This document shows, piece after piece, positions 1,916-59,431 of a stretch of DNA of 64,000 nt. The translations under genes were made by a program, and so were the position numbers. How positions within the stretch are numbered: the first letter of the stretch is position 1; every line of letters begins with the position of its first letter. Origin of the DNA: Diplonema papillatum (Eukaryota; Euglenozoa; Diplonemea; Diplonemida; Diplonemidae); the NCBI GenBank assembly GCA_030068145.1, contig JAPJBO010000232.1:186001-250000 (forward strand), read 5' to 3'. Below the pieces are notes generated by a model. It was not told the origin of the DNA. It did not search any database and saw only the letters and a list, made by a program, of their open reading frames with translations.

Positions 1916-3133
1916 ATGCCATTCAACGCGTACGTCGTAGACTGCATCCGCACGGCGCATGGGAAGAAGAAGGGCGCGTTGAAGGACTGCCACCCGGCGG
2001 ACATGGGCGCGTTTGTGATCGACGAGCTGCTGAGGCGTACCGGAGTGCCCGGGAAGGCGGTCGACGACGTGATTCTCAACTGCTCCACGCAGATCGGCTG
2101 CCAGCACCTGCTGGGGAGGGTCACCGTCATGGCTTCGCAGCTCCTCCCCGAGGACGTGGCGGGCACGATGGTCGATCGGAAGCAGCAGGCCATCCACTTC
2201 GCAGCGCAGGCGGTCATGAGCGGCGATCAAGACGTCGTCATTGCGTGCGGAGTCGAGTCGATGAGCAAGGTGCCCGTAGGCAGCGCGATGGCGGGCATGA
2301 AGTACAGCACCCCGTTCCACAGCGAGGGCCTCCAGCGGAAGTACAACGCCGCCGGCGCGGGGCTGAAGGTGTGGAACCAGTTCGACAACGCGGAGCTCAT
2401 CGCCAAGACGTACGAGATCACGCGGACGGAGCTCGACGCCTTCGCGGCGCGCTCGCACCGGAAGGCGGCGGCCGCCCAGGCGTCGGGAACGACACGGCGG
2501 GAGATCGTCGCGATGCCCATCGCCCGGCCGGGGGCGGGTGGGCCCTCCGTGTTCGACCGCGACGAGTGCGTCCGCCCCGCCACGACTGAGTCCGCCCTGC
2601 ACGCACTCCTCCCGCTGCACCCCGGAGGCGTCGTCACTGCAGCGACGAGCTCGCAGGCGAGCGATGGAGCGTCGGCGTGCCTGATCGTGAACGAAGTCGC
2701 GCTGTACAAATACAACCTCAAGCCCCGAGCCCGGATCGTGTCGATGGCGGCCGTCGGATCGAACCCGCTGCTGGGGCTGGACGGGCCGATTGCTGCGAGT
2801 CGGAAAGCCTTGCACAAGGCGGGGCTTCGAGTCGCGGACATCGACGTTTTCGAAGTCAACGAGGCGTTCGCGTGCGTGCCGCTGGCCTTCGAGAAGTCGC
2901 TCGGCGTCGACCCGGAGAAGGTGAACATCTTCGGCGGGGCCTGCGCCATCGGACACCCCCTGGGATCTGCCGGCACCCGGCTGCTGACGACGCTGGTCAA
3001 TGCGCTGGAAACGACGAACGGCCGATACGGCTTGCAGGCTGTCCCGGACGAGGCCACCGGCAATGCCTTCGTGATCGAAAGGGTCACAGACGTGGACCCA
3101 GAGCCGGTTATGTCACGCCTCGCCAAGCTCTGA
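1916..3133 (+). CDS. Thiolase-like protein, peroxisomal tail, catalytic cysteines absent
   Basis: An uninterrupted 405-codon frame matches thiolases (acetyl-CoA C-acyltransferases) along its whole length and ordinary family size. Visible landmarks are VVDCIRTAHGKKKGAL at the N-terminus, ACGVESMS near residue 112, SSQASDGA near 248, FEVNEAFA near 317 and AIGHPLGSAGTR near 345. The protein ends in AKL, a type-1 peroxisomal targeting signal, so a role in peroxisomal beta-oxidation would be the usual reading. Two things are odd. The nucleophile segment normally reads R-x-C-G-S-x-Q-Q-A, but here it is DRKQQAIHF, four residues short and without the cysteine. The second catalytic cysteine, normally in a CEGGG-type motif near the C-terminus, is also absent: the segment reads LQAVPDEATGNAF. 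The GHP histidine remains. Either this is a non-catalytic thiolase-fold protein or a decaying copy. The start ATG was chosen because family similarity begins within a few residues of it. Confidence 0.85.
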   Translation: MPFNAYVVDCIRTAHGKKKGALKDCHPADMGAFVIDELLRRTGVPGKAVDDVILNCSTQIGCQHLLGRVTVMASQLLPEDVAGTMVDRKQQAIHFAAQAVMSGDQDVVIACGVESMSKVPVGSAMAGMKYSTPFHSEGLQRKYNAAGAGLKVWNQFDNAELIAKTYEITRTELDAFAARSHRKAAAAQASGTTRREIVAMPIARPGAGGPSVFDRDECVRPATTESALHALLPLHPGGVVTAATSSQASDGASACLIVNEVALYKYNLKPRARIVSMAAVGSNPLLGLDGPIAASRKALHKAGLRVADIDVFEVNEAFACVPLAFEKSLGVDPEKVNIFGGACAIGHPLGSAGTRLLTTLVNALETTNGRYGLQAVPDEATGNAFVIERVTDVDPEPVMSRLAKL

Positions 3134-10935: not shown

Positions 10936-11925
10936 GCCCCAAACCCCCCCCCCCCCCCCCAACGCACCGCGGGGGCATCTCTGACGGTTTCGTGAATAAA
11001 AACCCGAGCTGGCTTTCCCAGCCCACTTCCTAGCCGCCCAGCGACATCACGTGTCTGCACACTTGACCAGTCGAGCCAGCGTTACTTCGACGGCTCCTCC
11101 GCACCACGAGTCCGTTCGTGTTTCCCCGTTCAATGCCCGTTTTTTCTCGAGAACGGTCCTGTGCGCTGTGGCGTCACCCCCCTGTACCTTGCCTCGCGCA
11201 GTCTGTCAGCTTTTGACGGCAGTGTAGTGGACTACCGTGGCTGTAACGGGTAACGGGGAATTAGGGTTCGATTTCGGAAAGGGAGCCGAGAGGGAGCCTG
11301 AGAAACGGCTACCACATCTAAGGATGGCAGCAGGTACGCAAATTGCCCAATAGCAACACTCCTGCGGCAGCGAAGAGAAATGGCCTGCACACGTACTTAG
11401 TACGTTAGAAGCAATGGATGATATCTAGACCTGTCAATGAACACAATTGGTGGACAAGTCTGGCTCCGGCACTGTGCTGCGGCCACGGTACCGAACGTGC
11501 CTGGCTTCGGCGTCATCCCAGTGCCCGTATTCTGCAAGGTGTTTCTGGGAGGAGTTAGTTGTCCTGCGTGCAGCTTTTTTTTCTGACGACGTGCGTATCA
11601 TACGCTCTCTCCTTCGCACACTTCGAACGTACCCAACCGTGTCCCCCAACGTGAGTTTTATCGGGCTCAGGCTGGGCTTGTCTGACAGTCGGTGTCGACG
11701 GTGATTGTGGGCGGGGCGAGGGAAAAAAGACCCCCAACGACACCCCCCGCCAGCATCGCCCAGACAGTACGTCCCGCCCTCGAATCTGCGTCAACCGAGT
11801 CCACTCACAGCAGAACTACCACCCAAAGGAAAAGTCGAAAGACACCCAGACGGCGCGCCAACACCCCTCGGTTGATTGCCGGACAGCGCAAAGCCACTAG
11901 GCATGAAGGTCCGGGGGCTGGGAAG
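10936..11925. other. Upstream region of the coiled-coil gene
   Basis: A run of C at about 10945 is followed by about 950 bases without a motif-bearing frame. The frame that becomes exon 1 is open from 11692, so the first exon might start earlier than annotated. No promoter element is obvious. Confidence 0.4.
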
Positions 11926-21896: not shown

Positions 21897-22299
21897 CATC
21901 AAGCAACGCCCTCCGATACCGCCAATCCTGCTACCACTCGAGTCGGACACGCCCTTTCTCCTCTGCGGGACGTGTGCAGCCTTCGACTTACCTCCCGTCC
22001 AGTCCTCCTGAAAAGGCGTTCAGCGCATCAGTTCTGTCACCGACATCTGATTACGCTGATGAAGCAAGCGATTGTTTCGTCGGTCAGCCGTGTGACTCGC
22101 CCGAAACCCAATTAAAATGCTTCGAACAATATGAGCCGTGAACTGTGAAGCTACGGGCCCGCAGATTGCAGGCCGGCGCCGGTTGCGAGCCTTAAACACA
22201 GCCGGCTGCCAGTACAGAACCCCAAAACTTCCCCCCGTCCCCTTGAGAGACTTGAATTCAACCAAGCAGGAACGGGGGGGGAAAGGAAGAAGCACGACA
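21897..22299. other. Short intergenic leader of the exostosin gene
   Basis: No gene seen. The 40 bases before the start codon are purine-rich with a G run. Confidence 0.5.
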
Positions 22300-23880
22300 A
22301 TGCCGGCCATCGCGAGCCTAACCCTGCTCCTGTGCCCCGCGCTGCTCGTGTCCGCCGACGAGGACCTGTTCTCGCGGCTGTTCCAAGACGAGTGCCAGAA
22401 GCCGTCGGTCAGCCGCGCAGCCCTGCGAACGCGGCTGCGCCTCTACTGGTACGAACTCCCCGACGGCTACTGGGCCGGCGCGCTGCGGTACCGGAACGTG
22501 CGGCGCCGCAGGAGCGGGCAGCCGTGCGACGCGGGCTGCTCGATCTGCGACGACGGCAGACGGAGCGCCGGCTCCGGCGCGGCAGCGGAGGAGCGGCGCC
22601 AGGGGGCCGGGGTCGCGCTGCTGGCGAAGCTGTCGCTGCTGCCGACCGTTTCGGACCCGCGCGAGGCCGACTTCTTCGTCGTCCCCTCCGCGAACCACCT
22701 GGTCCACCCGCCGCGCGGCAACGCCACGACCGTCGCGCACCTTTTCGAGCACCACCTCCCGCACTACAACGCCGCCAGCGCCCCCCGGCACATCTTCATC
22801 GGCGGAGACGGGCGCGAGCTGCACCCCGCAATCCGGCGCCAACCCTTAGTCATCCACCTAGGGCCAGCCGCCCCGCGCCCCCGCACGGACCCCCACGGGG
22901 CCTGCCAACCGGGCCGGCCGTGGCACATCGTCGTCCCGCCGTTCTCGCCGACGGAGGCGACGCAGCCGGCGCGGTTCCGGCACAACCCTAGCAGAACGAC
23001 GGACCTGTGCTGGTATTCGGCGGCGGGTGGCCGCGCCGGCCGCGCGGCCGCGGCGGAGCTGGCGCGGGCCGCGGCCGGCAACGGGGGGCCGGCCGACTTC
23101 ATCGGAGGACGCCCGCCTTCCGCGCGTGCGCTAGCGCGGGGAAGGCTCCGCCAGGGCGAGGGGGAGCCTGTGCGTGTGGTGGAGGTGCGGTTGGCTGTCG
23201 AGGAGTACAGCAACCACGGAGCGGCCTTGCAAGGGGCGGCGGACGTGTCGCTAGATGAGCAGACGGCACTCAGGCATGCGATGCTTGCAGGAGCGGGCCG
23301 CGTGCTGCAAACTGGGACAAACGAGGCGAACGAGACCGCGAGCCTCGTCAAACAACGGGCGGCGCCGCAAAGGTCGCGTCTCCTCCCTTCGCCCGCCGAG
23401 ATGCGGCGGGGGTACAACCGGTCCAAGTACTGCCTGATTCTCGACGGCCGCGCCCAGTTTTTCGAAGCGGTGGGCCTCGGGTGCCTGCCGGTGGTGATCG
23501 CTTACCGACCGGACACCGCCGACGAGTCCTGGTGGCAGGATCGGGGAGAGCAGTCCGGGCCTTCTCCCACGTCCGACGGAGGGTTTTTGGCCCCGTTTGA
23601 GGATTCGTACCCGTTCCCCGAGTCCGTGGCGTACAAAGACTTCGTCGTGCGCGTCCCTTTCGAGCAGTTCGTGCGCGAAGGCGTCATCCCGGCCCTCGAG
23701 CGCGTGACCGAAGCGGAGCGACTGCGGCGAACGCAGGCGTTGCTGCGGCACCGGTCTCTGCTCACGTACGACTTCGCCGCCCGCGCGCCCGACGCGTTCG
23801 AGCTCCTCTTGCGCAAACTAACCGACCTCTTGCCCCGCATAGACTCCGGTGCCAGCGGGCTGATCCCATGCCCTCCCTAA
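22300..23880 (+). CDS. Exostosin-type glycosyltransferase (GT47-like)
   Basis: A single 526-codon exon. The N-terminus (MPAIASLTLLLCPALLVSAD) is a good signal peptide, so the protein enters the secretory pathway, probably the Golgi lumen. Exostosin-family landmarks are YWYELPDGYW near residue 50, EADFFVVPSANH near 125, and the C-terminal block SKYCLILDGRAQFFEAVGLG followed by CLPVVIAY near residue 375-400, then VPFEQFV near 450. This block is the nucleotide-sugar-binding part of GT47 enzymes, which build glucuronate-, xylose- or galactose-containing glycans; the substrate cannot be told here. The frame is open further upstream, but the signal peptide fixes the start at 22300. Composition is very GC-rich, unlike flanking DNA. 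Confidence 0.85.
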   Translation: MPAIASLTLLLCPALLVSADEDLFSRLFQDECQKPSVSRAALRTRLRLYWYELPDGYWAGALRYRNVRRRRSGQPCDAGCSICDDGRRSAGSGAAAEERRQGAGVALLAKLSLLPTVSDPREADFFVVPSANHLVHPPRGNATTVAHLFEHHLPHYNAASAPRHIFIGGDGRELHPAIRRQPLVIHLGPAAPRPRTDPHGACQPGRPWHIVVPPFSPTEATQPARFRHNPSRTTDLCWYSAAGGRAGRAAAAELARAAAGNGGPADFIGGRPPSARALARGRLRQGEGEPVRVVEVRLAVEEYSNHGAALQGAADVSLDEQTALRHAMLAGAGRVLQTGTNEANETASLVKQRAAPQRSRLLPSPAEMRRGYNRSKYCLILDGRAQFFEAVGLGCLPVVIAYRPDTADESWWQDRGEQSGPSPTSDGGFLAPFEDSYPFPESVAYKDFVVRVPFEQFVREGVIPALERVTEAERLRRTQALLRHRSLLTYDFAARAPDAFELLLRKLTDLLPRIDSGASGLIPCPP

Positions 23881-24567: not shown

Positions 24568-24646
24568 TCTGGAATGTGAACTTCTGCCCAGTGCCCTGAA
24601 TGTCAACGCTGAGAGATCAGGTCAAGCGCGGGTAAACAGCGGGAGG

Positions 24647-24682
<36 letters not shown>

Positions 24683-24757
24683 TTCTAATTAAAGACGCGC
24701 ATGAATGGATCCATGGGATTCCTTCTGTCCTACCTACTATTTGGCGAAACCGAGCCT
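24568..24757 (+). pseudogene. 28S rRNA fragment
   Basis: The stretch includes CTTCTGCCCAGTGCCCTGAA, GCGCGGGTAAACAGCGGGAG, ACTATGACTCTCTTAAGGTA and GACGCGCATGAATGGAT, which follow the core large-subunit rRNA in the right order and spacing. Compared with the strongly conserved eukaryotic sequence it has many substitutions (for example AACAGCGGG for AACGGCGGG, CTTCTAATTAAAGACG for CATCTAATTAGTGACG), and similarity fades on both sides. It is a decayed or divergent fragment of about 190 bases and no working rRNA gene. Confidence 0.85.
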
Positions 24758-32668: not shown

Positions 32669-32966
32669 CCCCGGGGTCGGCTCCCACACTGTGTTGGCTC
32701 CATCCTTGCCTTTCGATTCGTGCAGATGAAGGACGAGCCGCAGTAGCAGAGGCTACGAAAACCCTGCTCCCCACCCGCACGATACGCAGAGTCGCCGACG
32801 GTTGCGGCATCTGATAAAAGAAACAGTTTGGAAATGCCGGCAACGCGCGGTACTTGCTGGCCCAAGAGGCTTCACAAAGTCTTCAACATGTCCCTGTAAC
32901 ACCAACGATCCCTCAAAGGTTGCAGGAGACAAAAAGTCGGCCTGCGTTCTACTTAAAGGAAGCCCA

Positions 32967-35900
32967 ATGTCGGCGCCGGCAACCGCGTCCTCACCCGCCC
33001 TCGACGAAACTGACGACGCCGGATCGCTCGCGCAAATGGAAGACGAACTGCAGGCAGCAGAAGAAGAGGGGGGTATTGAAACCTGCGCATCCGCTGACTT
33101 CACGTGGTACGCCGACGCGGGAAAAGACGTGCAGAGGTACTTGGATTCGCTGGGGAAGGACCTTGCTTCGATCGAAAAGGAAGCGGAAGACGGCGAAAAC
33201 GAGCCAGCAACCACCACCGCAGAAGAAAGCGACGATTTTGCAGACTTGGGCCAGAACAGGTCGGCCTCGTACAATGGTTGGGAAGACGAAGATCTGGCGG
33301 AATGGATACCGGAGAAGCTGCTCAAGCGATCCAACCGCAAGGGGGTGGCGCACTACCTCGTGAAGTGGCAGAACCACGACACGGCTACATGGGAATCCAG
33401 CGAGGACCTGGATGAAGAAGGCCACTTCAACCTAATGGCCAATTTTGACGCAACGCTGGCCGCCCAGGTCCAACCGAAGAAGGTGTGGGCGCCGAGACCG
33501 AAGGTGGTAACACCCTTGCCGCCGCTGCCCATGGGGTTCGACCCGACCGCATTCTGGCCGGACTACGTAGCGCGCATCCGCGACGTCTTCTACGAACGGA
33601 TGAGCAGCCACGTTACAGAAATCCACAACGTGCTCACCAAACAGGCAGCCAAAGCGTTCATGAACCACTGGCGGGGCGACACCGAGTTCGTCCCGGCGAT
33701 GCTCTTCCACGGCACCCGGCTCGAAAGCATCAGCAGCATCATAAACCAAGGTTTTCGTGTTCTTTTGTTATTTGTTTTACATAAGCGGCAGCTTATTGGA
33801 AGGATTTGCTCAACGAAGCTGCCAGGCAAAGAACCGAAGAGAACAAAAAAATAACGCTAGAACCCGAGTGCTGAAACTACCGAACCACGTGTTGAACGGA
33901 CGTGAGGTCATGCGGGTCTACCCCTGCACGAAGGCACACGAACACAACAGGTCAAAGTCCTGAGTGAGAAAACAACATACGATGGTATAAGCGAAGAACA
34001 ACCCAGATTGTGTTTGTATTGTATTTGCCCCTCTTACCTCTCCCTTCCATTCGGAGTCAAAGTAGCTACGTTGAGTATTTTGTTTCTTTTCGCAAACGAA
34101 CGTGTCATGGTTAAGAAGACGACTGAACGCACAGACACGAAGATAGCTCAAAGCATTTGCAAAATAACACGAAAAGCCTCTAGGCAAAAACCCGTTTTCA
34201 CATTTCTTTTCGCAAACGAAGGTGTCATGGGGGGGCCTTCACGTGGCGACACTGTTGACCGCACCTTAATTGAGTCGCGGTCGTCGATCCTCCAACCGCC
34301 AGCATCATGTACTTGATGCGACGCGGAACAAGTGCTGACAGCACCGCCCGGCGAATAGAGGGCCACAAAAGTAGCAAATCGACCGGTCGGGGGGTGCTTA
34401 GCAGCCAATGGCCTGATGGCTGAGTGCACACCTAAGCAGGGCTGCATCCTCGTGTTGTAGCCGTGTTGTGTATAAGGCTTTGTGGGGGCTTGGTCAACCA
34501 CCTCATCACAATAGGCGCAAACCTTTTCGACAGTGATTGGACAGTCGAGATTGCCGGGGGCAAGTCTCCATGAAGAAGAGAAAAGTAAAGCAAGACCTGC
34601 CCCCTGCGCCTGCTGTCTCCGGCTGCTTCGGCAGACGACACATACTACTACCACTCGCAAACGAAAGGTGTCATGGGGGTCGCCTTCACGAGGCGACACT
34701 GTTGACCGCGCCTTAATTGAGCTGACCGCCAGCATCATGCACTTGATGCGACGCGGAACGAAGTGCTGACAGCACCGCCCGGCGAATAGAGGGCCAAGAG
34801 TGGCAACATGACTGGGTGCTTAGCAGCCAGTAGCCTGCGATGGCTGGGTGCACATCTACCCAACTGATCGGACGCCACCACCGAACGGTGAACGTGCAAA
34901 AGGGACAGACAGCGCCTGTTCCCAGCGGAAGCGCGGACGCGACGACGAGCAAGCAGGTGGGAGCGCCCGCAAGAAGCCGACGCCGCAGCAGCCGCCTCTG
35001 AACCAGGAGCGCACCCCAAAAGTGGACATCCCACAAACCCAACGGAAGCGGAGCCGGGAAGACGAGCAGGCGAAGGAGTTGAGATCTCGGCCGCGGAAAC
35101 AACCTGCGAGGGAGAAAAGGAAGTGCACCGAATCATCTGATTCCTCGTCATCAAACTGCACATCGGACGTGAACGCGCACCGGCGACAAACAGTACGCGG
35201 GGAAAGAAGCGACCGAAGCATGACACGACGCGTGCAAAGAGGTAGTCTATCGACACAGATTGTTGCTGCATACCAAGTTCAAGCTACTACTACTACTACT
35301 CGCAAACGAAATGTACCGGCCTCACGTAGCTACCATCTGGTACCCCTGGTGCGTTCAGGCTTTTCATGCAATCCGTAGAAACATTCAACCTCACCAGGGT
35401 TTTGTATTCCCAGGCAGGGACCCGGCGGAGTGGCGGTCGTGAACGGGAGCGCTCATGGAGTCGGCATCTACACGGCCACAACCCCTGAAGTCTCCTTGAA
35501 TTACGCCCACGGGAACTGCATGTTTGTCTGCGCTGGGCTGGTGGGGGGCAGCTATTGGACGACGACGAAGAACGTAGGCCAAGTGTGCGTCTTTTTTCAG
35601 CGCAACCGCGTTGTACCGTGCTTCCTCGTCAAGTTCGAGAGTTCCAATGGTACAGAACCCGAGCCGGAACTGAAGTACTTCCCCGAAGTCGACGCATCGA
35701 AATTCAAAGTGGGAGAAGAGACGCCGAGCAAACCCAAGTACGTGGCCCCGCCAAGGGTCATCGGCCCAAACATCCCGAGAACGCTGAGGTCCGGGGGCCA
35801 GGAGCCGGGAATGAGGTGTGTCTGTTATGTTTTTGGCTGGGAAAAAAGACAGGCGCTTCGTTTTGTTTGTGCGTGCCACAGAAACAAAAGTAGCTTGCAC

Positions 35901-49528: not shown

Positions 49529-49600
49529 GATGCTAAGGCCCCTAAACTCGGCATCGTTGTCAGCCGGACGGCAACGAGGGTGGGTGGGTCCCCCCCCTAA
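49529..49600 (+). repeat. Repeat J, copy 1
   Basis: About 72 bases from GATGCTAAGGCCCCTAAACT to GGGTGGGTCCCCCCC are essentially identical to 61208-61280. Both follow a long C run, and both have GGGGGAACTACGGGG doublets nearby (49290-49320; 61314-61338). Confidence 0.92.
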
Positions 49601-49619
49601 ACACGTTCTTTCAGCGTTC

Positions 49620-52245
49620 TTACTAGTAAAATTACTAGTGAAAATGTCTTACTAGTGCCACTAGTCACTCTTACTAGTGCCACTAGTCACTCTTACTAGT
49701 GCCACTAGTCATTCTTACTAGTGGCACTCGTAAGAATGACTAGTGCACTAGTAAGAATGACTAGTGCACTAGTAAGAATGACTAGTGCACTTGTCATTTT
49801 TGCTAGTGTTTTACACAGTAAAGTCCATTTTTAGGCGGTGGATATGGTGTGGGTGTACGGCCCACGCTCGAATACTGTTCCGCGGGTTCGTCCTGCCGCT
49901 GTTGTGCACGCAGCAACATGAATGGTGAACACAACAGGTTGCCGAGAAGAACAAGTGAATGGGATAAGCATGGCCCGAAGTCTGGGGTGTGATGGGTGGG
50001 GAATTGCAAGAACACGTGTTTGGAATGGGTATGTGCTCAGGGTGTGATGGGTGGGGAGGGGGGAACAACGGAAGAAAGGGCCATGTGGCATAGAGTGCTG
50101 AATTCAGAGGAGGTAAGACTACCTTCCACCCGTGTGGGCATCGCGCATGTGGGCATCCCTTCTGCGTGCATCGGCGAACCTTGCATGCACAGGGGGCAGG
50201 TCTTCTTGTCAAGCTTCTCAGCATGAACGTACAGCAGGTGTTGTTCGATGGACATTGCGTTGTGCATTCGCAGGTGACTGTAGGGCGGTGGTGTGCGTCG
50301 TAGTGTGCGAAGAGGCCGTGGATTCGCGTGTAGCTCTTCTGGCTGATAATACACCCGTGCTCGCTGCTCTCGTTTTCAGGGTCGGTTGTGCTGCTGTCCG
50401 CATCGTCATCCTCCTCCTCATCGGAAGTCGGGTTGTTGTGCCACGGCTTCTCGTTGCAAATGCAAATCTTGAGAAGAACACCTTCACGAGCAGGACTGCT
50501 ACGAAACTTCTGTCCCCATCATTCAGTTCTCCGGCATACGTGGGCACCCAAACCAGCCCTTCGGAGGCGGGCCTCCAGGTTTTCTGCGGCTTGCTTCCAC
50601 ACCGTACTTCGTGCAGTGATGCACTTGCAAAGAAATATGGTGTCGTACTGGTACAGGTGTGGGAGGGGATTGCGACACGCGGGCGCGAGGTCAGGCGCAA
50701 ACCCTCGCGGCGCGCTTCGCTTCGTGTCCAGGCTCTTGAGGTGCTTTGTCTGCAGCTCGATTTCCTGGAAGTCTCGTTCCATTGTCTTCTGGGACGTGCA
50801 GGCGGACCACCTTTTGCGCTCACCGTTCATCTGCATCCTCTTCTACCCGACTAGCATCCGGAAGTGTCCGGATCACGAGCCATAGCATGCCCTTCACATC
50901 GTGCAAGGCTGGTGTGATGGCATGCGCTGGTTCCGTGATACGGGCGGCAATGTTGCAGTGGAAGCCCTGCGCATGCATTTCCTGGATGCTAAGCCGTTTG
51001 CATCTGTGCAGGTGTGCCAACCGCGTCTCAATGCAGGTTGCACAAAAGGCACTTCGGTGCCCGCCACCGCCCACGCCTCGAAAGAGCGACCACAATTCTG
51101 CGTGGTCACCACCAAACACAAATCGACTCAGAGGAATGATTGCATTGTTCTTGCGGAACGTACTTTCCTGAATAGCGCTCAGATGCGGCAGGCAGCTGAA
51201 GATCCACCATGAGTGGAAGGCAGGCTTCCGCTTATCGCACTCAGTAAGAAACCGCGTCGCCTTGAGGTCCCCGGACAGTCCAACAGCAAGACGCTGCCTC
51301 CCTGTTGCCCCACGGAAGGCGTTGCCTGGTTTGTACGCGTCCATTGTCACAACCACTGCGGGTGGGCAGCCACCCTGCTCCAGTGGAAACTTGGACAGCA
51401 GGAACGAAATTGCCTTCGGGGTATCCCCGACCAACTCGTCGGCCATCGCCTTGAACCCTGCTTCGCGTGCAGCAAGGGTGTTGTAAGACAGCCCCATGGT
51501 CCAGGCCAAGTTCGCTATTAATTAGCGAGCCCAGCTGGGCACACTGACGCATAGACATGCCGAATCGCATTCTGTTCTCTGCAATGATGCCACCGATAGC
51601 GCGCGCTGTCGGTGCATGGTATGCATCCATTGTTGTCTTCCCCCACACGTGACACCCGTGTGGGCATCGCGCATGTGGGCATCCCTTCTGCGTGCATCGG
51701 CGAACCTTGCATGCACCGACAGCGCGCTATCGGCGCCATCATTGCAGGGAACATAATGCGATTCGGCATGGCTATGCATCAGTGTGCCCAGCTGGCTTTC
51801 TACAGCAGTGAATGGCGAGCTTGGCCCGACCACGGGGCTGTCCTCCACAACATCTTTGCTGCACGGAGGGCTTCCGCTGCAACATTGCCTCACAACACAA
51901 AAGGTTCTTGGGAAACTCCTCTGCCAGGCGACTGGAAATGTTGTGCGGACTTACGGCAGGTGGCTTGGCAACCTAGTGTTCACCATTCATGTTTCTGCGT
52001 GCACAACATCGGCAGGACGAACCTGCGGAACAGTATTCGAGCGTGGGTCGGACACCCACGCCATATCCACCGCCTAAAAATGGACTTTACTGTGTAAAAC
52101 ACTAGCAAAAATGACTAGTGCACTAGTCATTCTTACTAGTGCACTAGTAAGATTGACTAGTGGCACTAGTCATATTACTAGTAAGATTTCTTACTAGTAA
52201 GTTCACTTTAAAATGACTAGTGATTGGCCTTACTAGTGCACCGTG
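49620..52245. mobile_element. DNA transposon with CTAGT-rich inverted ends, probable head-to-head dimer
   Basis: The ends are mirror images: 49620-49948 and 51966-52245 share CTAGT-rich terminal arrays (ACTAGTGCACTAGTAAGAAT) and about 150 bp of near-identical unique sequence (TAGTGTTTTACACAGTAAAG and on). A second inverted pair lies inside, 51470-51622 against 51718-51880. Reading outward from about 51.66 kb, the left half is a long gene on the minus strand and the right half an internally deleted version on the plus strand; both finish with the same tail, HRLKMDFTV, inside the terminal repeat. So the element looks like two copies fused at their 5' ends. Confidence 0.75.
50100..51720 (-). pseudogene. 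Putative transposase, unknown superfamily
   Basis: Protein-like sequence runs on the minus strand: RAIGGIIAENRMRFGMSMRQ, then a 229-codon frame (50820-51509) with VVVTMDAYKPGNAF, GGDHAELWSLFRG, CATC and ITPALHDVKGML, then QEIELQTKHLKSLDTKRS, an acidic stretch, and a cysteine/histidine-rich end (CECTTQCPSNNTCC, CACKVRRCTQKGCPHARCPH). The GGDH...CxxC...P-x-LH layout recalls transposase-like proteins of large eukaryotic DNA transposons, and the end recalls CXC-type zinc clusters, but I cannot name the superfamily. The reading frame changes near 51.5 and 50.83 kb and has one stop near 50.52 kb, so it is either interrupted by tiny introns or decayed. Confidence 0.5.
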
Positions 52246-52338
52246 TAGAGGGGGGGGGGGGGGGGGAGGGGGGGGGGGTCTGGTTTATCCGGCCATCCGG
52301 CCAAAGTGGCTGATCCTTAACAAGAGCGCTGCCCCACC

Positions 52339-52773
52339 CCCTTTTTTTTTTTTAAAGAAAAACGGACGAAGGGAGGAGGAAGTGAAGCCATAGCACATGG
52401 TTTCAAACCACGGAGTCCTGGACTCCTTTCCCACACTTCTTCAGCAAGGCAGACGCACAAAAGGACGGTGCCACGGCATGATTCGGCAGCCGCTGCTAAA
52501 CGAACATCGACGTGGGCGGCATAGAGAAAGAAGAACTACTCTACGGCACCAGAAAGTCCAAAAATACCATGGTAAAGAAATTTAAAGTTAAAATTAGAAG
52601 TAAAAGGAGAAAAAAGAAATTGGCGACAACGAAAGAAAGAACAGAAAAAACAGAAAACGAAAAAAAGAAAAAAAGAAGAAAAAAGACTCTGCATTCCGCG
52701 AAGAAGACTTGATGCTAGCATCAAACACTTAGAGGCAAGTAGCGCCTGAACACGAAACTAAGATTTTCCCCCC
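52339..52773 (+). repeat. Penelope-like element left terminal repeat
   Basis: Begins in a T run before AAAGAAAAACGGACGAAGGG, passes an A-rich stretch near 52600-52680 and a 16-bp palindrome TTGATGCTAGCATCAA, and ends GATTTTCCCCCC. Shares all but about two bases with the right copy. Confidence 0.95.
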
Positions 52774-53612
52774 TACGGAGTATGCCGGTCTTCTGAAGAC
52801 ACAGGTCTTACTCTGCTCTCCAATGGAGAAGACAACAGTTCCCCAAAAACAAGGGAATACCCAACAACCTACGAAGATAGGAAAACTCTGGCCGACTGCA
52901 GTAAAGCAGCACCGGCAGGAGAACGGCCCAATAAACAGCATCGAACTGACAACACCCCACCTCCGAATTCCCAAAACAAGGCGAGATTTGGAAAGGACCG
53001 CGTTGTCTACGCGGGAAAAGGTCAATTGCCAGTTATTCTCTTCCCTCCTTCATTTCCCAACAAAGAACAGTCTTCCGGGTGGCGAAACGGAAAACAAAGC
53101 ACTCAGCTGCCTACCCCCGTCCCGCCTACCGGATGCAAAATGTGACGTCCCAGCTTCTCTGCAGCACAGGGACTGATAGCCGGAAGCAAAACCCCGCATC
53201 CCTTTGTTGGCCGCGGCCGGTACCACTACAGTACTTTCGAGCGCCATACGGTACCGGCCCCGATGCAAAGTAAAAGTTTTATTTTACCCCCGCCCCGCAA
53301 CCCCGCGTCAGAGAGGAAGGCTGTCAACCTTCCTGCGCCCCACTTTTTCCCCCAGCTTAGAACAACCTTTGAGCGAGCCCCAAGCCAACTCCCCGTCAGT
53401 GGCTCTTGTCGGGGCAGCCATTCACAACTGACAGGAAGAAGACGAACGGACGAACTCCAGGGTCCTTTCTAAGCAAAAATACCCCAACTAAAAAGGGTAC
53501 AGAAAAGCACAGGTGCCATCCACACCAGTGCAGCAAGACCAGGGAAACCAGAACCCCGGGCAACGACGGAGACCCGAACTGATACCGACCTCATGGATGT
53601 TGTAACCACACG
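52774..53612 (+). other. Penelope-like element leader
   Basis: About 840 bases between the left repeat and the start codon. Frames here are short and motif-free; it presumably serves as 5' untranslated sequence. Confidence 0.6.
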
Positions 53613-56600
53613 ATGGCCCCTTGCCGTGTGGCCCTAAAAAACGCCGCAGGACCGCTTTTGGACCTGTCAGCCCGACACGTTGATAGACCCAAAATAAAAA
53701 ATCCCACACTCGTCTCTAAATCGCCATTGAAAGTGCCTAGGAAGCACAACCATTCGAGGCGGAGTGCTGCGTCGTCTACCACCACCGAGTCCGATAACAT
53801 GAAAGTTAACTACTTTGATGATGAACTCGACGGAACAGACGCTAAGGTAGTCGTCGGATATCCGATTCGGACAGATGACGAATGCCTTATTTTCCGACAG
53901 CGCCACTCCCAGGAAGGACCTGAACTTGTTGGTCGTTTCCCAGCGACACGGAGAGAGGGAAAGGAAGAGAAACGCTGCGACAAAGGTCACCCCAGACCCC
54001 AAGCGGCCCCCAAAACAAAGAAGCCCTGCGAGAAAGGTCTTTCCAGACCCCAAGCAGCCCCAGAACAGAGGAACCGTGGAACGACTAGCCACCCGGTTCA
54101 CAACGATCGACAAAAGGAGCGCGAACAAAAGAGGCCGCAAAAAGAAAAACCCAGAGCACAAGCACGAAAACGCCGCCAAGAAAAATCGGAAGAACGACCA
54201 CGTGACTCTGAGGCAAAAAAACAAAACGAAAAAAACCAAAAAAACCAAAAAAACAAAAAAAACAATAAAAGTGCACGCGCCAACAGAAAAGAACGGCGAA
54301 AACAAAAAACAAACCGGCCCAAATCTGACACTCGTTTCCTCGCCGCTTTTGTCCACACGCGCCGCCACCCTGACGACGACGACGACGATCACGGAAGCCG
54401 AAGAAAAAGCGCGATCGAAATCTTCTGGAAGCGATACGGCACAAAAGTGTCGAATGGGCGGAACAAATGCGGAACCGACCGAAGCGACGTCGCCGACAAC
54501 ACGACGGGAGTGATCTACGTACTTCTGAACGAAGGGGGCACCGTCCTCTACGTGGGTCAGACGTCGAAGACGGCCGAGGTGCGAAACAGCAAGCACTGGG
54601 AAAATCGGAACTCAAAGGGCAACCGTGTATCGCAACAATTACGAAAGCGAGGCCGGAAGCTCTACGCGTGTCCGATACAGAATGTTCCGGAACGGCTGTA
54701 CGCACAGCCCGCTGACTTCGCGCGCGTGGCTCTCCCAATCGAAGAGTTTTGGATCAAATGGCTAAACCCGCCATTGAACATGACGAATCGGCGACAGGGA
54801 GAGAGGGTCAACAACAAGGCTGCAAAGAAGAAGAGGAGGCAACGTCCACCGCAACGCCTCCGCAAACGACGCACCGACGGCAGCGTCTGGCACCGCATGG
54901 AAAACGACGAACTCCACATTGACACCTCCCCGGGCTTCTGTTCTGGGTTGAGGAAACAGTTGGACCACCTGTTGACACTCCCACAGGACCGACTGGGAAC
55001 CTACGACATGTCAACATGGCATCCCAATCGCGCCCTCCGCCTACGCACGTGGCTGAGAACCTTCGTTCAAGGAAAAGACGTCACAGACAAAGTACGAATC
55101 CTTGAACGACTCCTCAGTGCGCGCATCCGCAACAGAACCGAGAAACCGGCGGCCCCCCCACGACGGTATTTCAAGCTGACGCATCATCACCCGGCACAAG
55201 ACCGGACAGCAATTGCCGGCGTCCTGTCACGCGCACGGGTTCGCGAAACGTGCCCCAACCCGGCCGTCCTCAAAAACCTCATGGTGAGCAACCGCCTGAA
55301 GCCACCTTTGGTAACCCTCGTCAGCAACGTCACCGAAGTAAGTTACGAAGCGAATCAACCGACTAGCTCAGGTTCGGTTTGCCCATGCATGCAGCATATG
55401 ACACCACACCGCCCGGATCTTGGTGGACACGCTTTAGGACTTGCAACGGATCTGAAGACTGACGAAGCCCTCCTTTCACTTTTTCGAAAAGGACGAAAAT
55501 ACCGGGTCGCGAGTAGTCCGATGACTATGTACGACTCGATAAGACACGACGTCGAAGAATTCGTGAACTCGAATTTCCCGAAGGCGAGCGAGGACGAGAA
55601 GACCAGATTTTCAACAACTCTGGTCGAAGAGTTCGACGCCGTCCTTGGAACTCTCAACGCGCACACCGACGAACCTCAACTCCGAGACGCCTTACGCACC
55701 CTGAAGAAGCTCCAGGAGCACCTCGTGTTTCTCCCTGTAGATAAGACGTCCCATGACTTCGGGTTTATCTGCAAGGAAAAATACAAGGAGCTCTTACGGG
55801 ACGAATTACAACAGAGTTCAACGTACCAGGAAGTTGGCGAGTCGATTGATGACGTGCTCGAACGACACCGTGACTTCAACAAGTCACACAAGTTCGTACA
55901 CACCGACAACCTACCGTACCTTTACGGCATCCCGAAGCTCCACAAACCCGAACCACGGATGCGGTACATTGCCGGCGTGTCGGAGAAAGGAAACGTTGAG
56001 AAGAAAGACGAACAGAAGGACCGAGACGAAAAAGGCCGCGACAAGAAACGAATGAAGACACGTGCATCCACAACCCCTGCACACCAAGAAGCCTCCGGTT
56101 TGCTGAAGCTGGTGCTAGCAACGCTCCGAAGCAAGGACGAAGCGACGTTTTTGCAAACGGGGATACGTCGTTTCTTCGTCGTGGAGTCGGTCGATGACGT
56201 AGCAGTACACATAAAGACGAACTACGCTCGACTGCGCAAAAAAGCGCCACGAACCTTCGACTTCAAAGAGATGTACACGAAGATTCCGCAGAAGCAGATT
56301 GTTGACTATGTTATGTCTGCGGTTGCAGAGGCTTTCGAGTACATGAAGTCCGAAAAAGGAGCGAACGTAGAAGCCCAGCGCGCCAAACACCGCTTCGAAT
56401 TTGGGAAACCAGACGAATCGAACACGACCTCCTACAATGTCGAAGAGATTCGAGCACTGGTCAGCTTCATTGTTGGTAACACCTTCGTCACCAACGGTGG
56501 AACATGCTACCAGCAGGTATCCGGAATCCCCATGGGCGGCAATGCAAGCCCAGACCTCGCCAACTTATACTGCTACTGGTGCGAAAAGCAGTACATCGAC

Positions 56601-58133
56601 GGCCTGGTCGCGAAAGGATTGCAAGAAGAGGCCAGGAATCACGCCGACAGCGTCAGATTCATTGACGACTTCCTGACCTGGGGTGTTCGACCACCGCCGG
56701 AAGATATCTACGGCATGGAGTATGGTGAAACGTCGAAAGGTGTCGACGACGTAGTCTTTTTGGGGATGCGGATCCGGATGGAGAGGAATGACAAGACGGA
56801 CTTCATTCGGATGTCTGTCCTGGACAAGGGTGAGGAATTCCCCTGGAATCCGATAAAGTACACCCACGTCGAATCCACGGTACCACGAAACACCGGAACC
56901 TCGATCTTCAAAGGCGCACTGATCCGAGCAGCGCGCATCTGCAACAACATGCCAGATCTGAAGGTCGAGGTCATGAAGGTGTACTACAGACTTCGGAACC
57001 GAGGATTCTCTGGACGGGAACTCCGGCGCACGTTCGACACGTTCGTGGCACAAACGTACGGAAAGTACGAATTAGATGCGCGAGTGCTGTCACGGTTTTA
57101 CCACTTCGTCGGAAAGGCCTATGACGAAGGTCGCCCGACCAACGAGGAAAAATCGTACATCAGCATCCGCACGCCGCAACCGCCCGACGGCTCACCGAAA
57201 CATCCACCCGGGAGAACCTCGCCGCAGTCTACGTCGCCGCACAAATCCGAACCCACCAGCACTACGCACCCTGCGACGAAACCAACAAACCCACCTGGAC
57301 GCAACGGCATAACGAACATTCGCAACTCATGTTTCTTCGCCGCCAGCGTGCAGTTCCTGGCGCGAAGGACGTCCTTCCGACTACAACTCGCAAACCTAAC
57401 GCACCTGGACACCAACCAGCAGATGGTGCAGAGGCTGTTCACGGATTTCGACGCAGGCCAAAACATCCACGGTACAATGGCCACACTCCGGAGCCTCGTG
57501 TTCAACACGACGGCAGACGACTCCGCGCATCGGGACGTGCACGAACTGCTGACGTGGATACGCTCCTGCGTGACGGGCGACGACGACGACCAAGCTACGG
57601 TGACATACTCCCGTTTGACAACGTGCACAATATGCAAAGAGTCTTCACGAGCATCGCCGGCGTCAGAACCGTTCCTGATGCTTGAACTCAAAAACAGGGA
57701 GAAGCCCTACACCGAGTCAGTTGAGGATCTGATAAAGAAAGTGCAAAACAAGAGAGCAACCAAAGTGGACGACTTCCCCTGTAGCACCTGTAACAAAAAG
57801 ACCGTTGGATCCACGAAGGAAGATTACACATTTCCAAAGCAAATGGATGTACTACTGCAACGAGCACAGCTATCGAAAAAAACACGCGAAGAAATAAAAA
57901 TACCAGCCCGCACCCCGATCCGACAAACCATACTGATCGGTGAAGACTCCTACACGGTAAAAGGCTTCATTATCCACACCGGAAGAGCAACGGCAGGTCA
58001 TTACTATACCGTGTTAAAGGAAGACGATGAATGGGTATGCTACGACGACCAGCAAGTATCCGTACTCTCATGGGAGGAATGTGCCAGGAGATTCACAACC
58101 AATGGCTACGTCATCTCTCTCGAGAAAGCGTAA
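53613..58133 (+). CDS. GIY-YIG / reverse transcriptase / USP-protease polyprotein
   Basis: 1506 residues in one frame. Residues 1-290 are basic and low in complexity. A GIY-YIG nuclease follows: GVIYVLL at 299, YVGQT at 313, Arg324, His328 and the acidic IEEFWIKWLNPPLN at about 376. The Penelope-type reverse transcriptase has PYLYGIPKLHK at 768, DFKEMYTKIP at 883, QQVSGIPMGGNAS at 967 and RFIDDF at 1015 with the DD pair. A proline/threonine-rich linker (about 1185-1228) leads to a ubiquitin-specific protease domain: cysteine box NGITNIRNSCFFAASVQFLA with Cys1240, zinc-finger pairs CTIC (1338) and CSTC (1390), histidine box TAGHYYTVLK with His1463, and WVCYDDQQVS with Asp1478/1479. An N-terminal GIY-YIG is the permuted order of the Naiad/Chlamys clade. 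The terminal protease is the novelty. All catalytic positions I can check are present. Confidence 0.92.
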   Translation: MAPCRVALKNAAGPLLDLSARHVDRPKIKNPTLVSKSPLKVPRKHNHSRRSAASSTTTESDNMKVNYFDDELDGTDAKVVVGYPIRTDDECLIFRQRHSQEGPELVGRFPATRREGKEEKRCDKGHPRPQAAPKTKKPCEKGLSRPQAAPEQRNRGTTSHPVHNDRQKEREQKRPQKEKPRAQARKRRQEKSEERPRDSEAKKQNEKNQKNQKNKKNNKSARANRKERRKQKTNRPKSDTRFLAAFVHTRRHPDDDDDDHGSRRKSAIEIFWKRYGTKVSNGRNKCGTDRSDVADNTTGVIYVLLNEGGTVLYVGQTSKTAEVRNSKHWENRNSKGNRVSQQLRKRGRKLYACPIQNVPERLYAQPADFARVALPIEEFWIKWLNPPLNMTNRRQGERVNNKAAKKKRRQRPPQRLRKRRTDGSVWHRMENDELHIDTSPGFCSGLRKQLDHLLTLPQDRLGTYDMSTWHPNRALRLRTWLRTFVQGKDVTDKVRILERLLSARIRNRTEKPAAPPRRYFKLTHHHPAQDRTAIAGVLSRARVRETCPNPAVLKNLMVSNRLKPPLVTLVSNVTEVSYEANQPTSSGSVCPCMQHMTPHRPDLGGHALGLATDLKTDEALLSLFRKGRKYRVASSPMTMYDSIRHDVEEFVNSNFPKASEDEKTRFSTTLVEEFDAVLGTLNAHTDEPQLRDALRTLKKLQEHLVFLPVDKTSHDFGFICKEKYKELLRDELQQSSTYQEVGESIDDVLERHRDFNKSHKFVHTDNLPYLYGIPKLHKPEPRMRYIAGVSEKGNVEKKDEQKDRDEKGRDKKRMKTRASTTPAHQEASGLLKLVLATLRSKDEATFLQTGIRRFFVVESVDDVAVHIKTNYARLRKKAPRTFDFKEMYTKIPQKQIVDYVMSAVAEAFEYMKSEKGANVEAQRAKHRFEFGKPDESNTTSYNVEEIRALVSFIVGNTFVTNGGTCYQQVSGIPMGGNASPDLANLYCYWCEKQYIDGLVAKGLQEEARNHADSVRFIDDFLTWGVRPPPEDIYGMEYGETSKGVDDVVFLGMRIRMERNDKTDFIRMSVLDKGEEFPWNPIKYTHVESTVPRNTGTSIFKGALIRAARICNNMPDLKVEVMKVYYRLRNRGFSGRELRRTFDTFVAQTYGKYELDARVLSRFYHFVGKAYDEGRPTNEEKSYISIRTPQPPDGSPKHPPGRTSPQSTSPHKSEPTSTTHPATKPTNPPGRNGITNIRNSCFFAASVQFLARRTSFRLQLANLTHLDTNQQMVQRLFTDFDAGQNIHGTMATLRSLVFNTTADDSAHRDVHELLTWIRSCVTGDDDDQATVTYSRLTTCTICKESSRASPASEPFLMLELKNREKPYTESVEDLIKKVQNKRATKVDDFPCSTCNKKTVGSTKEDYTFPKQMDVLLQRAQLSKKTREEIKIPARTPIRQTILIGEDSYTVKGFIIHTGRATAGHYYTVLKEDDEWVCYDDQQVSVLSWEECARRFTTNGYVISLEKA

Positions 58134-58199
58134 ACACTTTCACCTGGTGGAAGTAGTGCCCCGTGGCGGTTGGTTACGAGCCACAACCCAATTTGTAAA

Positions 58200-58631
58200 C
58201 CCCCTTTTTTTAAAGAAAAACGGACGAAGGGAGGAGGAAGTGAAGCCATAGCACATGGTTTCAAACCACGGAGTCCTGGACTCCTTTCCCACACTTCTTC
58301 AGCAAGGCAGACGCACAAAAGGACGGTGCCACGGCATGATTCGGCAGCCGCTGCTAAACGAACATCGACGTGGGCGGCATAGAGAAAGAAGAACTACTCT
58401 ACGGCACCAGAAAGTCCAAAAATACCATGGTAAAGAAAATTAAAGTTAAAATTAGAAGTAAAAGGAGAAAAAAGAAATTGGCGACAACGAAAGAAAGAAC
58501 AGAAAAAACAGAAAACGAAAAAAAGAAAAAAAGAAGAAAAAAGACTCTGCATTCCGCGAAGAAGACTTGATGCTAGCATCAAACACTTAGAAGCAAGTAG
58601 CGCCTGAACACGAAACTAAGATTTTCCCCCC
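58200..58631 (+). repeat. Penelope-like element right terminal repeat
   Basis: Same sequence and orientation as the left repeat. The two differences I see are AAATTTAAAG against AAAATTAAAG and GAGGCAAG against GAAGCAAG. Confidence 0.95.
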
Positions 58632-58974
58632 AACCAATCCCCCCCATGGTAGCTGCGGCGGCAAGCTGAAGAGGCTACGAACTCATGATGGAGTACGCAG
58701 ACATGGTTTTGCGTTAGCATAGGGGTTTGACCCAAAAATGAGAAGCGAAGAGGACAGACATGTGCGTGCAGCAGTGATGAAAAGCTGACTCGCTTTGAAA
58801 GACGTAGCGAAGCGCGAAAAAGAAGAAGAGAAAAAGGCTGCTGATACTAGTAGGGCCTTTGAGACGTGGTTATACCCCAGCCTCCACTACAGAATGCAAA
58901 CGCGGAAGGGCTTCAAGTGCTTGCGTGAAATCTTTTGAACTGAATGACTTCTTCGTTCTCCCCTTCGGAGAAAA
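58632..58974. other. No gene recognised
   Basis: Flank of the Penelope-like element; no motif-bearing frame or repeat identified. Confidence 0.5.
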
Positions 58975-59182
58975 AGTACCCCCCAAAAAAAAATCCCGCT
59001 GCGCGGGGCCAAAATCCCCCCCCAACAGTAAAAACACCCCCAAAAAAAAAACTTTCCCGCTGCGCGGGACCCCACCCCCCTCCCCCCCCGTGTATAAGAT
59101 CGCCCTCATTTCTCAAAAAAACCGATCTTGTACACGGGGGGGGGGAGGGGGCGATCTTAAACACGGGGGGGGGTAGGTAGTG
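58975..59182. repeat. Palindromic repeat P, copy 3
   Basis: Contains two CCCGCTGCGCGGG blocks, then CCCCGTGTATAAGATCG and the inverted CGATCTTGTACACGGGG and CGATCTTAAACACGGGG, closing with GGGTAGGTAG, the mirror of the CTACC opening in copy 2. Confidence 0.85.
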
Positions 59183-59431
59183 GATTTTTTCAAACGCCAC
59201 GCACCGGCCAGTGTGGCTCCTGGGGCCTGGCGCGTTTGGCGTGGCGCGGCGCGCGCCAAGCCTGGTGCGTTTGGCGCGGCGCGGCGCGTTTGGCGCACCC
59301 TGTAACCCCAAGGAAATTTGGGCTCCCTCGTCACATGCACGGGGCAAAAAAGAGTGCCTCGGGGAATTGATCATTTCCCCGGCCATTTTTCAATGCACAA
59401 ACAGTGGTATCTGGTTTTGGCAAAAGTTGTG

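Follow-up and report, generated by a model that had tools for sequence, protein, structure and literature searches.

A stretch of 64,000 nucleotides from the marine flagellate Diplonema papillatum, a diplonemid (contig JAPJBO010000232.1, positions 186,001 to 250,000; hereafter the window) contains a retroelement whose single open reading frame (ORF; 53613-58133, forward strand) joins a GIY-YIG endonuclease (EN), a reverse transcriptase (RT) and a C-terminal ubiquitin-specific protease (USP), in that order. The element is a Penelope-like element (PLE) of the permuted group, and it falls into a clade whose members carry cysteine proteases of several families in the same slot behind the RT. The explanation that we favour is that a permuted PLE with a USP moved recently, that it belongs to a clade with varied proteases, and that its protease would act in cis to protect the RT protein; to this explanation as a whole we give a probability of roughly 0.55.

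The ORF runs uninterrupted for 1506 amino acids (aa), and its start ATG lies ten codons past an in-frame stop (Table 1). A Pfam search of the ORF recognized GIY-YIG (PF01541) above cut-off at residues 299-386 and UCH at residues 1232-1500 (E 2.9e-15, 57 bits against a cut-off of 23.9), and it matched RVT_1 at residues 877-1021 below cut-off (E 0.043); NCBIfam gave only weak group II RT matches, far under cut-off. The RT is instead assigned from homologues with a PLE-type RT and GIY-YIG, from two motifs (FDFKEMY, RFIDDF) and from the RT tree described below. The ORF is flanked by 430-bp direct repeats that are 99.3% identical, and the start of the repeat lies within a C/T run whose length is unequal between the two copies. 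PLEs occur as tandems or partial tandems, hence such pseudo-long terminal repeats (pLTRs) (PMC11167929), and the near-identity of the two copies suggests that the element was inserted recently. The features of PLE membership (a PLE-type RT, a GIY-YIG within the same ORF and direct terminal repeats) are present, as are those of the permuted PLEs, namely a GIY-YIG N-terminal to the RT and an RT that branches with other N-terminal-GIY elements. The element is classed with the permuted PLEs, whose GIY-YIG is N-terminal, from a tree that holds no named Chlamys or Naiad references.

An earlier note, made from the letters of the window alone, had proposed a Penelope-type RT joined in one frame to a USP and to a GIY-YIG in the permuted position. 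These proposals were borne out: the RT by homologues, motifs, tree and terminal repeats, the common frame by the Pfam GIY-YIG and UCH matches on one ORF, and the permuted order by the place of the nuclease ahead of the RT and the grouping of the RT with N-terminal-GIY sequences. With its terminal repeats, the element extends beyond the span 53613-58133 given in the note. Hammerhead ribozymes are frequent, although not universal, in the pLTRs of PLEs; none was found up to E 5 in 51800-59400, and the only core-like pattern lay on the minus strand. Upstream of the element, at 49600-52240, short palindromic repeats rich in ACTAGT recur within a few kilobases, as do inverted repeats.

The C-terminal domain is almost certainly a USP. 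When the ORF C-terminus was compared with PDB by sequence, the best match was USP15 (6.7e-8), and a profile of five element USPs matched USP12 best (4.1e-23), with USP46 at 2.3e-22; this profile reached 105 sequences at E <=0.001, and the 60 listed were all named USP or Ubl-hydrolase. AlphaFold2 returned a confident predicted model of the domain from a five-sequence input (predicted local distance difference test, pLDDT, 80.6; predicted template modelling score, pTM, 0.79), and a two-sequence input gave a pLDDT of 38.3. The cysteine box, two CxxC pairs, histidine box and final Asp that the earlier note had read in this domain could all be located: Cys1240, His1463 and Asp1478 make up the putative triad, Asn1235 occupies the oxyanion position, and the zinc pairs are Cys1338/1341 and Cys1390/1393. 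In an alignment of six element USPs (the window, P0008, P0014, P0027, P0018 and L002, the last five being introduced below), with pairwise identities of 20-68%, the catalytic Cys and His are found in all six and the Asp in five (Asn in P0014); the second zinc pair is present in all six, the first is complete in four, and the oxyanion Asn is kept in five. The USP is very probably an active deubiquitinase.

The element is not confined to one locus. In a protein database search with the ORF, in which 8000 candidates were scored, the best matches were D. papillatum proteins; the top match covered 71% of the query (residues 290-1506) at 100% identity. P0008 represents a second family of D. papillatum and is annotated as ubiquitin carboxyl-terminal hydrolase 26; P0008 and the top match are representatives of clusters (7 and 18 members, respectively) and were viewed in place of the individual members. 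P0003, which belongs to the same family as P0008, has GIY-YIG and RT, while of the USP its own gene model keeps only a tail. The other D. papillatum copies and the second USP-bearing family rule out a single-copy artefact or an assembly chimera. Some element copies belong to gene models that also include host exons, with the annotations UNC93-like, dynein intermediate chain 2 and STIP1-like. Five models (P0004-P0007 and P0021) exit the element at residue 1329, 1333 or 1337 (57597-57623), near GT dinucleotides, into other sequence (three annotated host proteins), by either mis-annotation or real exonisation.

Between the window element and family 2, identity is 90.9% in the GIY-YIG, 82.6% in the RT (residues 870-1105), 67.6% in the USP and only 35.6% in the Pro-rich linker that separates RT and USP. 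The protease might mature the protein of which it is part by cleaving this linker, or a ubiquitin-like fold within the ORF, in the manner of a viral polyprotein protease. The linker does evolve fast, but at this level of identity no conserved cut site is evident, no ubiquitin-like domain is found in the ORF by Pfam, and USPs rarely cut ordinary peptide sites. Self-processing is therefore improbable, even though the PRO protein of turnip yellow mosaic virus (TYMV) acts both as a deubiquitinase and as a processing protease (PMC3744425, PMC5695851).

The intact catalytic positions had been taken in the earlier note to mean a domain under selection or very young, and the results fit both ways: the terminal repeats suggest youth, and the USP has stayed conserved although 32% of its residues differ between the two families. 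In a neutral simulation, random codon substitutions were introduced into the USP (substitutions only, which favours the neutral side, with all change on one branch). When drift proceeded to 68% identity, the level between the two families, 29 of 5000 runs remained stop-free, the seven key residues survived in 216, and a single run combined the two; at 35% identity, the level against P0014, 1 of 3000 runs remained stop-free and 0 kept the key residues. L1 and PLEs are able to carry host sequence along (PMC6431247), and the USP might be a functionless host domain picked up by chance, but the retention of frame and key residues at both levels of divergence, together with the occurrence in one slot of several protease types from families with a similar known role, makes such a passenger very improbable. 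As a separate matter, a recent USP capture visible as odd codon usage was considered and rejected, the RT and USP parts being alike (a value as large as that observed arose in 210 of 1000 permutations).

When the RT-USP region was searched as a profile (7999 candidates scored), it gave at least 46 proteins, 11 from D. papillatum among the matches listed. Pfam was run on 26 of the 46, and the other 20 were judged by precomputed Pfam annotation, which names no protease. UCH was recognized behind the RT in P0014 (3.6e-15), P0018 (2.5e-21) and P0027 (7.5e-16); in addition to the second D. papillatum family, three further RT relatives therefore end in a USP. The same place is taken by Ulp1/C48 in P0022 (7.6e-8), whose protease part matched human SENP proteases (SENP5, 2.8e-9), and by OTU in P0030 (3.5e-9). 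The N-terminus of P0025 is GIY-YIG-like (22.5 bits, E 8.3e-8, with a profile of five PLE nucleases in a 17-protein set; Pfam makes no call) and a weak OTU lies behind its RT, so that EN, RT and OTU probably share one ORF in this protein. In two relatives a transcriptome ORF carries RT and protease in one frame: P0018 (USP), from a EukProt transcriptome labelled Rhum, which we read as Rhynchopus humris, and P0025 (weak OTU), whose label EG_transcript_489 we read as Euglena gracilis. A genome-contig search gave five loci, of which three (L001, L003, L004) are protease-free PLEs and L005 has no ORF of 150 aa. The remaining locus, L002 (1-2640), is a PLE RT fused to a USP (UCH 5.6e-27) on a contig filed under a gammaproteobacterial metagenome-assembled genome, and this contig is likely eukaryotic contamination. 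No Rfam family reached the gathering score on L001-L005, and no relative was found in two scans of viral contigs.

A two-sequence profile of P0025 and P0030 matched OTU2 (1.6e-4) and, best of all, chains labelled viral RNA-dependent RNA polymerase (4.2e-7), which we take to be nairovirus-type OTUs. This resemblance would suit a protease that counters host silencing or defence by deubiquitinating a restriction factor or a component of RNA interference (RNAi), as viral OTUs do, and RNAi genes are present in D. papillatum (PMC10161547). However, no host factor is known for such a role, and fusion to an RT would be an odd arrangement for acting on distant targets, which leaves a role against host defence quite unlikely.

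RT trees of 25, 28 and 22 sequences were built, from which near-identical D. papillatum copies and other, mostly short or weak, matches were excluded. P0043 was removed after the 25-sequence tree because of its long branch, and the 22-sequence tree (RT core, gappy sequences out) excludes P0023, P0026, P0027, P0029, P0033 and P0050. Family 2 is represented in the trees by P0003, its USP label being taken from P0008. In the 28-sequence tree, a clade of ten sequences at 100/99 comprises both D. papillatum families, P0014, P0027, P0018, P0015, P0022, P0023, P0025 and P0030. Within it, the USP sequences group together at 100/99 and the OTU sequences at 100/100, the join between USP and OTU reaching only 84/63; P0022 and P0023 pair at 95/89 and are joined by P0015 at 100/99. 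The 22-sequence tree recovers the main clade with eight sequences at 100/99. A protease is present in eight of the ten clade sequences (family 2 through P0008, and P0025 on weak evidence) and in 1 of 18 outside the clade, namely L002, where P0034, P0035 and P0050 were judged by precomputed Pfam annotation only. Grouping L002 with the other USP sequences was rejected by the approximately unbiased (AU) test (p 9.1e-34), the group having been chosen after the domains were known. The side of 22 sequences that includes the window element splits at 100/100 from six others, including P0033, which has a C-terminal GIY-YIG match below cut-off. The hosts of the ten-sequence clade, named or inferred for four of its sequences, are all Euglenozoa. 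In most members of this clade the RT is followed by a cysteine protease of the ubiquitin or SUMO type, drawn from the USP, OTU and Ulp1 families, and parsimony by protease type requires four changes (P0023 not counted), which are four gains if the ancestor was without a protease.

The variety of peptidases among these relatives suggests that the host tagging system matters for such elements. Since the domains that recur belong to three peptidase families, all known to remove ubiquitin or its relatives, and since such a domain is located on the RT polypeptide in eight sequences, action in cis is the simplest reading of the protease. The host would tag the long RT/endonuclease protein with ubiquitin for destruction; the attached protease would strip the tags from its own polypeptide; and the ribonucleoprotein would thereby survive to nick its target and copy. 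Both halves of this scheme have precedents: TRIM41 ubiquitinates L1 ORF2p, lowers its level and limits L1 (PMC10716122), and TYMV PRO strips polyubiquitin from its own 66K polymerase, countering degradation (PMC3744425). Host control of RTs through ubiquitin, as exerted by TRIM41 on L1 ORF2p, would then be linked to a possible countermeasure carried by the element itself. We put the chance that the protease shields the RT protein in this way, with the substrate, cis action and benefit to transposition that it implies, at slightly below even. In a broader form, ubiquitin and SUMO tagging may be a general barrier to permuted PLEs, answered at least four times by fusing an available deconjugating protease (USP twice, OTU, Ulp1) C-terminal to the RT, so that the protease would be a regular working part of retrotransposition in the clade; this extension is offered just as tentatively.

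The protease could also act in trans at the target, removing ubiquitin at the nick from histones H2A/H2B, from PCNA or from repair proteins, and so enabling target-primed synthesis or repair of the second strand. The nuclease and RT would carry the domain to DNA, and the many USP profile matches include ubiquitin carboxyl-terminal hydrolase 8 (Ubp8), presumably the SAGA H2B enzyme. On the other hand, Pfam recognizes no domain in the ORF that would read chromatin, the best PDB matches (USP15, USP12/46) indicate no single substrate, and the Ulp1 and OTU relatives would require other substrates. Repair has been proposed by the Ginger authors as the target of transposon proteases (PMC2836005), but on balance action at the target is unlikely.

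Several observations weigh against the favoured explanation, in which the protease protects its own polypeptide. Cis action is not singled out by sequence, and the Ulp1 of P0022 points to SUMO over ubiquitin. Within the ten-sequence clade, P0015, which ends after the RT, and P0023, a fragment, have no protease, so that a protease is not strictly required. Parsimony on presence or absence alone needs three changes (P0023 not counted); a single early gain is therefore compatible with the tree, and the protease may have been gained once and later swapped or lost. The OTU of P0025 is weak (E 0.0047, Pfam cut-off not reached), the P0018 USP is without the oxyanion Asn, and in the alignment of six the P0027 and L002 USPs each retain one of the two Cys residues that form the first zinc pair. 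Two CxxC zinc pairs are common among USPs, not universal. Finally, no significant standalone USP relative was found among 226 candidates with lengths of 0.55-1.75 times the domain.

Table 1. Features of the USP-bearing Penelope-like element, in window coordinates.
Feature	Coordinates	Strand	Remarks
Left terminal direct repeat (pLTR), 430 bp	52347..52776	+	may begin some bases earlier, in C/T run
Untranslated stretch between left repeat and ORF	52777..53612	+	in-frame stop at 53580-53582
Single ORF, 1506 aa, EN-RT-USP	53613..58133	+	
Basic low-complexity N-terminal region, residues 1-298	53613..54506	+	49% identity over the 51 residues that align with family 2
GIY-YIG endonuclease, residues 299-386	54507..54770	+	PF01541 E 9.2e-6; 90.9% identity with family 2
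RT-related region, residues 560-1180: CxC stretch, DKT motif, insert, RT core, thumb	55290..57152	+	
Pro-rich linker, residues 1181-1228	57153..57296	+	35.6% identical to P0008
USP (peptidase C19) domain, residues 1229-1506	57297..58130	+	Pfam UCH; PDB profile matches; AlphaFold2 model
Putative catalytic Cys1240	57330..57332	+	Cys in 6/6 element USPs
Putative catalytic His1463	57999..58001	+	His in 6/6 element USPs
Putative catalytic Asp1478	58044..58046	+	Asp in 5/6 element USPs, Asn in P0014
Right terminal direct repeat (pLTR)	58205..58634	+	99.3% identical to left repeat

Elsewhere in the window, all on the forward strand, a 350-aa ORF at 32802-33854 combines a chromodomain (Pfam 1.8e-7) with a partial match to the PARP catalytic domain (9.3e-5, below cut-off), an unusual pairing that may belong to a second mobile element or to a host gene cut short. 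A 1021-aa ORF at 16148-19213 matches RVT_1 weakly (3.2e-4, below cut-off) and is perhaps a further retroelement. A thiolase ORF (Thiolase_N 5.3e-47) lies at 1916-3133 and an exostosin-GT47-like ORF (1.6e-8) at 22138-23880. Fragments matching 28S and 18S ribosomal RNA lie at 24582-24709 and 11142-11379, respectively, and are consistent with the approximately 3600 scattered 28S pieces described in D. papillatum (PMC10161547).

Proteases of the ubiquitin/SUMO type recur in transposon groups (Ginger1, Helentrons and NeSL/Utopia), for reasons that are unsettled. Craig et al. (2021) reportedly described the Naiad/Chlamys PLEs, which have a permuted GIY-YIG. The window element shares with this group the N-terminal GIY-YIG and the PLE-type RT, and differs by the addition of a C-terminal USP; Chlamys is present in Ectocarpus, in a paper whose main text is without the word ubiquitin (PMC12477816). 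The earlier note knew of no described PLE with a deubiquitinase, and this agrees with the literature matches listed (titles and abstract starts, not all aimed at the point), none of which gave a PLE with USP, OTU or Ulp1.

Among DNA transposons, Ginger1 offers the parallel of one element group with either an OTU or a Ulp1 at the C-terminus, but its transposase is integrase-like, it is no retroelement and it has no USP (PMC2836005); peptidase C19 does occur, according to the same source, in a transposase of T. vaginalis. Helentrons likewise have a mobile-element protein with an OTU-like domain, in a rolling-circle DNA transposon (PMC6431247). The non-LTR retrotransposons NeSL/Utopia (including Utopia-1_TSP) are RT elements with a Ulp1-like cysteine protease, which differ in that the protease is N-terminal, the endonuclease is restriction-like and the hosts are nematodes (PMC4640811). 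TYMV PRO, like the window's USP, is a deubiquitinase type made together with a polymerase, and it acts on that polymerase, as is proposed for the USP; it differs in being of the OTU family, in belonging to an RNA virus and in doubling as a processing protease (PMC3744425). Beside these systems, the window places a PLE in the genome of a diplonemid, and a single retroelement clade with three protease families at the same position on the RT constitutes a natural experiment in convergence.

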